From Desulfotignum sp. (GTDB taxonomy: Bacteria > Desulfobacterota > Desulfobacteria > Desulfobacterales > Desulfobacteraceae): a stretch of 35,550 nucleotides of DNA. Under the pieces are notes generated by a model. The model was not told where the DNA came from and searched no databases. It saw only the letters and a list, made by a program, of their open reading frames with translations. This document shows positions 5,145 through 30,046 of this stretch, in pieces; positions within the stretch are counted from its first letter, which is position 1; each line of letters opens with the position of its first letter. Both the position numbers and the translations under genes were made by a program. The DNA is taken from the NCBI GenBank assembly GCA_011390615.1, contig JAABSB010000012.1, positions 1 to 35,550 of the forward strand, in the 5' to 3' direction.

Positions 5145-5330
5145 TCAATCATTGGATCTTTCTTTCCGTTCATTGTCGATGAACGTGTCCACAGCCTCAG
5201 GTGTAGTTCCGATGGGTGCCCGGAAATATCTGACTTTTGGGAATCCTGCCATCAGTGCCCCATGGCAGGAGCAGTGTCGCTGTTTTGGCGTGGTAGACCC
5301 GGTGGTCCAGGAGGCAGGGGCAAACCCGGG
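5145..5330 (-). pseudogene. C-terminal fragment of a second nitroreductase
   Basis: The minus-strand frame reads PGFAPASW and then CHGALMAGFPKVRYFRAP, matching the intact nitroreductase (PGFGLGSCW ... CHGALMVGFPKFKYFRAP) with the intervening part shortened and altered. It ends at a stop at 5145. The N-terminal two thirds of the gene and the ferredoxin domain are missing; upstream on the coding strand lies the left end of the IS200/IS605 element. An intact relative sits at 109-951. Confidence 0.65.
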
Positions 5331-5356
5331 GTATGGAGATGACTGGAATTCCCCTT

Positions 5357-5374
5357 CCATAGCCGAAGGCTTGG
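5357..5374. repeat. Left-end hairpin of the IS200/IS605 element
   Basis: CCA, unpaired T, AGCC, loop GAA, GGCT, TGG. A single unpaired T in the stem of a subterminal hairpin is the kind of feature TnpA recognises in IS200/IS605 ends. It lies 25 bases beyond the tnpA stop. Confidence 0.55.
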
Positions 5375-5398
5375 TGGTGGATGGATAGGCGGCATTGC

Positions 5399-5797
5399 TT
5401 ATTGTCCCTGGTTCTGGATGTACTGTTTGATCACATCTATCGGAGCACCCCCAGAAGACAATAAGCAATATGCCCGGGTCCAGAGAACTGGCTTACTGTA
5501 AAACTTGGCCAAATGTCCCTGATAATTTTTTCTGACCAGTCGGCTTGAAACTGTTTTGAGATTATTGATGAATTTGGACAGGTCGATATTGGGGTATGCC
5601 GCAAACAGAATATGGATGTGGTCGGCTTCGCCGCCAAACTCAATCAAATCCACATCCCATTTTTGACAGATATTTTCTGTGACTTTTTCCAAATACTTCA
5701 AAATTTCATCGGTAAAGCACTTGTGCCGGTATTTTGTCACTAACACCAAATTATATTTCAGATCAAATAAACAGTGATGATGTGAATGTAATTTCAT
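5399..5797 (-). CDS. tnpA: IS200/IS605 TnpA, HUH/Y1 transposase
   Basis: The protein has 132 residues from the ATG at 5797 (MKLHSHHHCLF); a longer frame exists upstream, but the family usually begins at this point. The HUH motif is in GGEADHIHILF and the single catalytic tyrosine is in VIKQYIQNQGQ near the C-terminus. LVLVTKYRHKCFT is the conserved N-terminal strand. Length and all catalytic residues are normal for Y1 single-strand transposases, which cut and join at subterminal hairpins during replication. The gene is transcribed away from the tnpB remnant. It appears intact while its partner is not. Confidence 0.92.
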   Translation of the reverse strand: MKLHSHHHCLFDLKYNLVLVTKYRHKCFTDEILKYLEKVTENICQKWDVDLIEFGGEADHIHILFAAYPNIDLSKFINNLKTVSSRLVRKNYQGHLAKFYSKPVLWTRAYCLLSSGGAPIDVIKQYIQNQGQ

Positions 5798-5882
5798 AAT
5801 ACTATCTTTCATAAATTGATTATAAATTAACTTTACACTAAGCTTAATGTATGATATGAAACTTGTCAAGATGGAAACAATC

Positions 5883-6241
5883 ATGGCCTATAAATACCCG
5901 ATTTATCCGACCAGAATCCAAGCTGAAGAATGAATTCTCCATATGCCGTCATCTGTTCAATTGGAACCTGGAAGAAATGATCAATGCATATAAGGGCCAT
6001 GGGGAAACCATCTCATACAGCCAGCAGTAAAAGGCATTGCCTGGGCATTGATATGGGATTGATTAATTCCTGGTATGATTCTGATGTATATTCCGTCCCG
6101 GCCCCGAAGTATCTACGTCAGAGTGAAAAGAAGTTGAAGCGGTTACAGGCTCGACTTTCTCGGGCCAAGGCGCAGAAGGATTGGCCCCGGGTCCTGAACC
6201 GGGACCACAATGCCGCTATCAATATTTTGACCCTGGGCTAA
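5883..6241 (+). pseudogene. tnpB: Decayed IS605-type TnpB
   Basis: The N-terminus MAYKYPIYPTRIQAEE stops early. Another frame carries on with ICRHLFNWNLEEMINAYKG and stops, and a third reads GIDMGLINSW, then KYLRQSEKKLKRLQARLSRA, then jumps to NRDHNAAINILTLG and the natural end. The RuvC-I aspartate (GIDMG) and RuvC-III aspartate (RDHNAAIN) segments survive. The RuvC-II glutamate and the zinc finger have been deleted, and several frameshifts break the rest. Full TnpB is about 400 residues; little more than a quarter remains. No active guide-RNA nuclease can be made from it. Confidence 0.85.
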
Positions 6242-6373: not shown

Positions 6374-7210
6374 ATGCTTATCATGAAAAATTTTTGTAGC
6401 TTGTTTGTTTGTGTTGTGTTGATAATTCCGGTTTTGTGTTATGCATCAGACTGGGATTTAGATGCTGATGGAGATGTGGATGGAAAAGATGTGTATCTAT
6501 TGACAGGTGCTTTTTCATCAGATCATCTTGAGCCGTTTGCCGCAGTGTTTGGCAGTGTAGAAACAACCTGTGGCGCTTATGTCGCCCCTGGTGGGGTATG
6601 GAAGGAATTTGACTGCTACAACCTGGCAGCCGTTGGCAGGGATTTAGGCCATAATCCATTCATACCGTCCTGGAGCCTTATCGGAGGTTATTGGCAGTGG
6701 GGCAGGAAGGGGCCTGATCCCAGCGATTGGCATGATATTAATACGGAGCATTTTGCCCATGGACCTACTGGGCCAGGTGATGGGGAAACAAACGAAGGTG
6801 AGATCAGTGGATGGGACCAAACAAATGCTCCCGATGGTGCCTGGTCTGGTAATGACAAGACTGACGATGATCCTTGCCTTGACGGGTTCAGGGTGCCTAG
6901 CATTGCCCAGTGGATGGGAGTAATTACTAACAACATTCAGACCACCGTGGGGACGTGGACAAACAGTGCGACTAACTACAGCAGTGCCCTGATTTTTGGC
7001 ACCGAGCTGATGTTGCCGGCCGCCGGCAGCCGCTACTACACCAGCAGCGGGGCGTTGAGCAGCCGTGGCGACAACGGCTTCTACTGGAGTGGTTCAGAGT
7101 ACTCCGGCACCTACGGCGCATGGGGCATGTACTTCAGCAGTTCGAACGTCGGCGCGGGCAGCGGCGGCTTCCGCCAGGACGGTCACTCTGTCCGTTGTGT
7201 CGCAGAATAA
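6374..7210 (+). CDS. Secreted FISUMP-type C-type-lectin-fold protein; probable DGR variable protein
   Basis: The protein has 278 residues with an N-terminal signal peptide (CSLFVCVVLIIPVLCYAS). A single dockerin/EF-hand-like calcium loop (DLDADGDVDGKDVYLL) follows at about residues 28-43. From about residue 65 it reads as a Fibrobacter-succinogenes-major-paralogous (FISUMP) C-type-lectin domain: WKEFDCYNLAAVG, YWQWGRK, DPCLDGFRVPSIAQW, ELMLPAAGSRYY, GFYWSGSEYS and the terminal HSVRCVAE. In codons 220-271 (7031-7186), 35 of 52 codons end in C, unlike the AT-rich first half. This is what AAC-rich templates leave after adenine mutagenesis in diversity-generating retroelements. No reverse transcriptase or template lies in the window. 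AGGAGG precedes the ATG at 6374 by two bases; the in-frame ATG at 6383 is an alternative start. It sits directly after the IS200/IS605 right end. Confidence 0.8.
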   Translation: MLIMKNFCSLFVCVVLIIPVLCYASDWDLDADGDVDGKDVYLLTGAFSSDHLEPFAAVFGSVETTCGAYVAPGGVWKEFDCYNLAAVGRDLGHNPFIPSWSLIGGYWQWGRKGPDPSDWHDINTEHFAHGPTGPGDGETNEGEISGWDQTNAPDGAWSGNDKTDDDPCLDGFRVPSIAQWMGVITNNIQTTVGTWTNSATNYSSALIFGTELMLPAAGSRYYTSSGALSSRGDNGFYWSGSEYSGTYGAWGMYFSSSNVGAGSGGFRQDGHSVRCVAE

Positions 7211-7374
7211 TCTGACTATTTGACCATTCAACAATTGCGGCAATGCTTTGCCCAGGTATAAAGGCAGAAAAAGCAGTGTGTAATCAGCCGTTTCAATGCT
7301 GTTTTCCGTACTGATTCGGTGGAGAATTTTCTGAAGGCCCTGAGGATTCAGCATTTGGTAAGGAGATCGAATCA

Positions 7375-29509: not shown

Positions 29510-30046
29510 TCACTTTATTTCATAAAACGCGCTGGGGGACAAAAATGACCGGGCACTTTCCAGATAGCTTTCAGACATGGCATGGATGCTTTTGGCAAGC
29601 TGTTCAGGGTTGTCATAGATCTTTTTTACCGTGCCCGGAGAACCGGTTACAAGTGAACAGGGCGGTATTACGGTTTTTTCCAGCACAACCGCACCGGCTG
29701 CAATGACAGAGCCTTCTCCAATCACGGCATTGTTCATAATGACGGCACCCATGCCGATGAGGCAGCCGTCTGCAATGGTACACCCGTGAATCACAGTTCT
29801 GTGGCCGATGGTGATGCCATGGCCGATGGTCAGAGGAATGCCTTCATCCGCGTGGCACATGCACAAATCCTGGATATTTGTTTTTTCTCCAATGGCGATC
29901 GTGTCCAGATCCCCCCGGATGACTGTCTGAAACCAGACCGAAGAATCTTTGCCGATACTCACATTGCCGATAACCTGGGCTGAGGGAGCCACAAATACGG
30001 AGGGGTGAATCCGGGGGATATAGGTTTTATAGGCGTAAAGAGGCAT
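29510..30046 (-). CDS. Gamma-carbonic-anhydrase-like hexapeptide-repeat protein, copy 2 (complete)
   Basis: The protein has 178 residues, starting MPLYAYKTYIPRIHPSVF, the usual N-terminus for this family. The hexapeptide repeats and histidines are the same as in copy 1 at 1371-1883 (166 alignable residues, 13 differences), but this copy lies on the opposite strand. It follows the ABM-domain gene by 36 bases, so the two may share a transcript. This copy looks complete and is the better candidate for the functional gene. Confidence 0.88.
   Translation of the reverse strand: MPLYAYKTYIPRIHPSVFVAPSAQVIGNVSIGKDSSVWFQTVIRGDLDTIAIGEKTNIQDLCMCHADEGIPLTIGHGITIGHRTVIHGCTIADGCLIGMGAVIMNNAVIGEGSVIAAGAVVLEKTVIPPCSLVTGSPGTVKKIYDNPEQLAKSIHAMSESYLESARSFLSPSAFYEIK

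Follow-up and report, generated by a model that had tools for sequence, protein, structure and literature searches.

The window analysed here is a stretch of 35,550 nucleotides from Desulfotignum sp., whose genome is represented by a draft assembly of 3.02 Mb in 222 contigs that is 83.2% complete. On the forward strand of contig C24, an open reading frame at positions 6374–7210 encodes a FISUMP-type protein of 278 amino acids. The protein begins with a hydrophobic N-terminus, which by eye may be a signal peptide, and continues with a D-x-D-x-DG-rich stretch followed by the FISUMP domain; it would be exported and presumably binds a ligand. By the curated models it belongs to the FISUMP family only weakly, both scores falling below the respective cut-offs (TIGR02145: 23.1 bits, E 9.6e-5, cut-off 41.65; PF09603: 15.4 bits, E 0.022, cut-off 33.9). 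For the presumed C-type lectin fold, structure prediction yielded a poor model (mean pLDDT 47), a fold search with this poor model returned 0 structural matches at E 0.001, and a sequence search against solved structures gave a single match at E 0.4. Judged by sequence comparison, the protein is clearly homologous to proteins encoded in Bacteroidetes metagenome-assembled genomes (MAGs), on one viral contig and in one other genome of the same order. Homologues are present in two of 86 genomes of the family, that is the source genome and the same-genus genome G066. When the homologue from the other genome of the order (hereafter G117) served as query, matches were obtained in three of 389 genomes of the order (the source genome G000, G117 and G370). 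Neither of these two proteins gave phage or plasmid matches, and searches with the G117 protein and with an alignment of Prevotellaceae stretches (A1, see below) retrieved no viral relatives. On one viral contig, a FISUMP-like domain devoid of the codon signature described below is embedded in a protein of 2780 amino acids (L028:5909–14251).

The gene is preceded by an IS200/IS605-type transposase gene, tnpA, at 5399–5884 on the reverse strand, whose product matches PF01797 at E 3e-39, as well as by a broken TnpB-like remnant of the same element (5885 to ~6240, forward strand), which consists of frames with stops and whose end resembles a TnpB C-terminus by eye. Hence, the insertion element that the original prediction placed beside the gene is real. 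Elsewhere in the window, two very similar genes of hexapeptide-repeat-like appearance, as judged by eye, occupy positions 1371–1883 and 29510–30046, and the frames at 109–1182 and 5145–5468 resemble each other along a stretch close to their ends.

The feature of interest is the C-terminal part of the FISUMP gene, for which the signature of a variable region of a diversity-generating retroelement (DGR) had been predicted. Our analysis places the proposed variable region at 7031–7186 (forward strand, codons 220–271), based on its NNC codons, on its divergence from G117 at codon positions 1 and 2, on DGR templates and on hypervariable columns in paralogues. It is followed by the conserved end SVRCVAE and the stop codon (7187–7210, forward strand), with six of the seven residues being identical in G117. 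Within codons 220–271, 35 of 52 codons end in C as compared to 20.1 expected for this amino acid sequence if codons were used as in 26 genes of the window, chosen from the list of open reading frames (P 6e-6), which confirms the predicted excess. None of 7,993 windows of 52 codons taken from these 26 genes reaches 35 C-ending codons, the maximum being 29. The six tyrosines of the region are all encoded by TAC, as had been claimed, whereas TAT accounts for four of the six tyrosine codons in codons 1–219. The first part of the gene is AT-rich, again in agreement with the original prediction (44% GC in codons 1–100 versus 51.9% for the window), and codons 1–200 are poor in NNC (41 versus 73.4 expected). 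The claimed scarcity of adenine holds in direction, but the difference is mild (18% in codons 220–271 versus 22% in codons 1–139). The AGC codon at 7028–7030, directly before codons 220–271, also falls into one of the hypervariable columns of the Prevotellaceae paralogues.

G117, a genome of the same order that consists of one contig and is 99% complete, offers the decisive comparison. Its gene product is 63% identical to the Desulfotignum protein over 213 residues, and the gene carries the same signature, with 37 of 53 codons being NNC versus 18.3 expected from six neighbouring genes (P 3e-8). In the body of the two genes (codons 66–219), differences at codon positions 1, 2 and 3 amount to 38, 31 and 74, respectively, as compared to 23, 16 and 13 in the variable region, and this shift in the position pattern is significant (Fisher P 0.0007). 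Both genes have C at the third position in 29 of 50 aligned codons of the variable region, and 19 of the 35 codons that differ are NNC in both. In other words, variation of this region at codon positions 1 and 2 is observed between species. On the level of sequence, such divergence is what adenine mutagenesis of AAC codons would predict, and not what codon bias or plain foreign origin would predict. The same test against the signature-free homologues L016, L018 and L028 was not significant (P 0.21, 0.36 and 0.20, respectively), and against L017 it gave an intermediate value (P 0.04). L089, in which 30 of 54 codons are NNC, is likewise intermediate, and an adenine-mismatch scan of its surroundings (L153) detected no template. 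The closest homologue from the same genus, L016, lacks the NNC signature, which counts against the DGR reading as far as sequence comparison goes.

Similarity between the two genes extends into the non-coding 3' flank (7214–7256, forward strand), where a local alignment scores 15, a value that none of 5000 shuffles attained. This flank is possibly a remnant of a homing site, or else reflects plain common descent. Folding of the DNA downstream of the Desulfotignum gene revealed nothing notable (z -0.89); a hairpin of 10 bp is predicted downstream of the G117 gene (z -2.09), which is perhaps a terminator. Searches of G117 yielded no RVT_1 match, no match to a DGR profile and no second copy of the target, and inspection by eye of the open reading frames of at least 120 codons within ~4 kb on either side of the target revealed no transposase. 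Away from its FISUMP gene, G117 contains a repeat pair (L152:18210 and 12398) with seven mismatches at A and three elsewhere per 60 bases.

A further set of sequences is provided by the Prevotellaceae MAG Nc350_bin171 (2.0 Mb), which contains 26 stretches (L049–L074) similar to one FISUMP variable region and represents a large DGR-type repertoire. Twenty-one of these stretches lie at most 700 bases from a contig end. No reverse transcriptase was found in this fragmented MAG, and none of the 24 stretch ends that were read had the look of an AAC-rich template. Alignment A1 comprises 22 of the 26 stretches (L055, L073, L057 and L074 were left out). It contains 19 columns that vary over at least six amino acids with at least 80% of the third bases being C, the variation residing in positions 1 and 2. 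These columns were defined without using the Desulfotignum gene, which nevertheless has NNC codons at 18 of the 19 hypervariable columns versus 27 of 60 others (P 7e-5). Corresponding values for the G117 gene are 17 of 18 versus 27 of 61 (P 9e-5).

DGRs with related targets and authentic templates were found on viral contigs. A literal 18-base motif in generic codons led to three viral contigs, two of which carry DGRs (L130 and L131); two literal motifs in the gene's own codons gave 0 viral matches. Both loci (L130:5891–10082 and L131:1314–4648) comprise a template, a target and a reverse transcriptase (RVT_1), and differences between template and variable region occur at template adenines in 26 of 26 and 17 of 19 cases, respectively. 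L130 additionally has an avd-like gene that scores below the Pfam cut-offs, and its template and reverse transcriptase lie within one open frame. The L130 target protein matches the Desulfotignum protein at E 6e-5 and the G117 protein at E 3e-8. The L131 target matches the G117 protein at E 8e-8, and its direct comparison with the Desulfotignum protein is not significant (E 0.49). Neither viral target matches the Pfam family Fib_succ_major at E 0.1. At non-adenine template bases, identity to the Desulfotignum region is 59% for L130 and 53% for L131. All AAC codons of both templates face NNC codons of the Desulfotignum gene (14/14, P 0.0005 for L130; 13/13, P 0.002 for L131); these P values should be read as guides, since the tests assume independence of codons and the templates are related to each other. 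For the signature-free homologues L016, L018 and L028, the corresponding counts are 2/14, 2/14 and 2/14 with the L130 template, and 2/12, 2/12 and 1/13 with the L131 template. L017 reaches 7/13 with both templates (P 0.07 and 0.12). For two of the Prevotellaceae paralogues, the same comparison with the L130 template did not reach significance (P 0.18 and 0.07).

The original prediction also stated that no DGR machinery lies near the target. This agrees with a scan of the window in segments of 60 bases, which detected no near-copies differing at A; as a control, the adenine-mismatch scan recovered the known template in three of three loci. A near-copy of the variable region was to be sought in the remainder of the genome, where the 83%-complete assembly yielded none: the best other blastn match spans 24 bp at 88% identity, and a hypothetical template peptide matched the FISUMP gene alone. 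This method works at such a distance, since the same peptide recovers the real templates in the same-family genomes G002 and G004. Among 389 genomes of the class, the peptide matched five at E 0.001 or better (G000, G002, G117, G370 and G184), and it had no match in viral contigs. The accessory gene avd (PF22296) likewise gave no match in the 83%-complete source genome; of 15 genomes searched with this profile, four contain a match at E 0.001 and one a match above the cut-off.

The reverse transcriptase that had been envisaged elsewhere in the genome was not found in the 83%-complete assembly either. The single RVT_1 match is truncated where contig C69 ends and scores 92.7 bits with a profile built from six DGR reverse transcriptases. 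As a candidate for the missing enzyme it was rejected: the group II maturase model TIGR04416 scores it at 200.6 bits over residues 16–168, as compared to 88–147 bits for five DGR reverse transcriptases. In a tree of 17 rows, from which G370_c and G370_d were left out, it falls outside the DGR clade (support 95/97) and groups with other reverse transcriptases with weaker support (85/70). No Rfam match was obtained for the region (L002, 1–1000) at E 1. By sequence, this open frame looks like a fragment of a group II intron.

Several relatives of the source organism do carry DGR components, which the search methods applied to the source genome recover. The same-genus genome G062 harbours a prophage-like DGR with target, avd, template and reverse transcriptase in this order (L043:6210–9131), and G072, also of the same genus, has a phage-type DGR target accompanied by avd and a template (L091:3–1960). 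A partial RVT_1 match is located at a contig end elsewhere in G072. DGR cassettes are present in G002 and G004 as well. As judged by eye, the DGRs or templates of these four genomes belong to other target types. As a side observation, a DGR-type reverse transcriptase and avd are encoded at L041 of G087, with a template that by eye is of the sulfatase-modifying-factor type.

Codon statistics, the divergence pattern relative to G117, the Prevotellaceae columns and the template AAC codons all agree with the predicted nature of the C-terminus. Very probably, it represents the DGR variable region of a FISUMP-type protein that is either orphaned or served from afar. Mechanistically, an AAC-rich template would have been copied by an error-prone reverse transcriptase misreading A, and the resulting cDNA would have replaced codons 220–271 at least once, thereby converting AAC to NNC codons and leaving C at the third positions. 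The outcome would be a lectin-like variable protein of the FISUMP type. Since neither the template nor the DGR that would have written 7031–7186 was found, adenine specificity is deduced from distant templates. To account for the present state, the cassette may have been lost, or the target may have arrived alone and already diversified. The IS200/IS605 element at 5399–5884 is a reasonable candidate for the agent that separated the target from its DGR, by analogy to cyanobacteria: there, IS200/IS605 transposases are reported near nine variable proteins in six species and are the most widely distributed transposases in this setting (PMC7517822). The adjacency of such an element to a DGR-type target is common to both cases, but the cyanobacterial variable proteins come from genomes with annotated DGRs (PMC7517822). 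In G117, however, a target of the same kind occurs where no transposase is seen by eye within ~4 kb, among open reading frames of at least 120 codons.

Within this explanation, a less likely course is that the DGR resides in the missing 17% of the genome or on another replicon. That is, a reverse transcriptase and a template encoded in the unassembled part, or on a phage or plasmid within the same cell, may still diversify the gene in trans. Incompleteness of the assembly and its 222 contigs leave room for such a system, relatives carry DGRs or sets of avd, template and target, remote targets have been published (PMC7517822) and the gene is an open frame. On the other hand, none was found in the assembled 83%, the templates of the relatives belong to other target types by eye, and G117 harbours a target of the same kind without a reverse transcriptase match or second copy despite being 99% complete on one contig. 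Taken together, we regard a living DGR as possible but rather doubtful. More speculatively, FISUMP targets of Desulfobacterota may travel between DGR-less hosts as pre-diversified cassettes composed of the gene and a 3' homing flank, being rewritten only when a phage or a neighbour brings reverse transcriptase and template; G117 and Nc350_bin171 would be further cases. We consider this idea improbable.

It is very unlikely that no DGR ever acted on the gene and that the region is instead an acquired GC-rich, C-ending segment or the product of local codon bias or base composition. GC content rises to 67% at 7019–7190 versus 48% at 6374–6985, which is also expected of a foreign segment. However, it is C rather than G that prevails at the third positions of codons 220–271 (35 C and 10 G), G117 diverges at positions 1 and 2 while third positions remain C, and NNC codons occupy every AAC position of the L130 and L131 templates. 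Still less credible is an origin of the variation in gene conversion between FISUMP paralogues, or in diversifying selection, without reverse transcription. For this, the 26 matching stretches of Nc350_bin171 in the apparent absence of a reverse transcriptase could be cited, but this MAG is fragmented, blastn revealed no second copy in the source genome, and selection on amino acids would not keep the third base C across many replacements.

With a DGR-type variable region as the preferred reading, the gene belongs to a kind that is already published, namely orphan targets and Fib_succ_major targets. Isolates of Treponema denticola possess DGR target genes that lack a reverse transcriptase or template (PMC4891356). 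The Desulfotignum gene resembles these orphans in having a DGR-pattern variable region with no reverse transcriptase or template identified in the genome; it differs in the organism and in that the T. denticola orphans have a matching template in DGR-bearing isolates of the same species (PMC4891356). The domain Fib_succ_major has been catalogued as a target of DGRs, with nine putative DGR variable proteins in human microbiome data (PMC4159848, Table 2). These proteins have the domain name in common with ours but were identified by looking for DGR systems, whereas the Desulfotignum protein was found without a DGR and its domain scores are below cut-off. To the viral DGRs L130 and L131 it is linked by related targets and by template AAC codons falling on its NNC codons, but these are complete DGRs, with a reverse transcriptase and a template encoded in cis, and are distant in sequence. 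Full DGRs have been reported for Gammaproteobacteria among sulfur-cycling MAGs from salt marsh (PMC10686091). Judged by title and abstract opening, none of the papers retrieved reports a FISUMP target of Desulfobacterota that has been orphaned.

Surveys anchored on the reverse transcriptase overlook targets such as this one, and Roux et al. 2021 note that remote targets would escape their own approach (PMC8144416). The codon-position test needs nothing but the target and one homologue to reveal a diversified region, and it flags two genes of Desulfobacterota type, those of Desulfotignum and G117, without a visible DGR. If a template acts in trans, the gene at 6374–7210 would count among the remote DGR targets, in a lineage of sulfate reducers; if there is no template, it would be a relic, left either by the loss of a DGR or by a target being transferred on its own.
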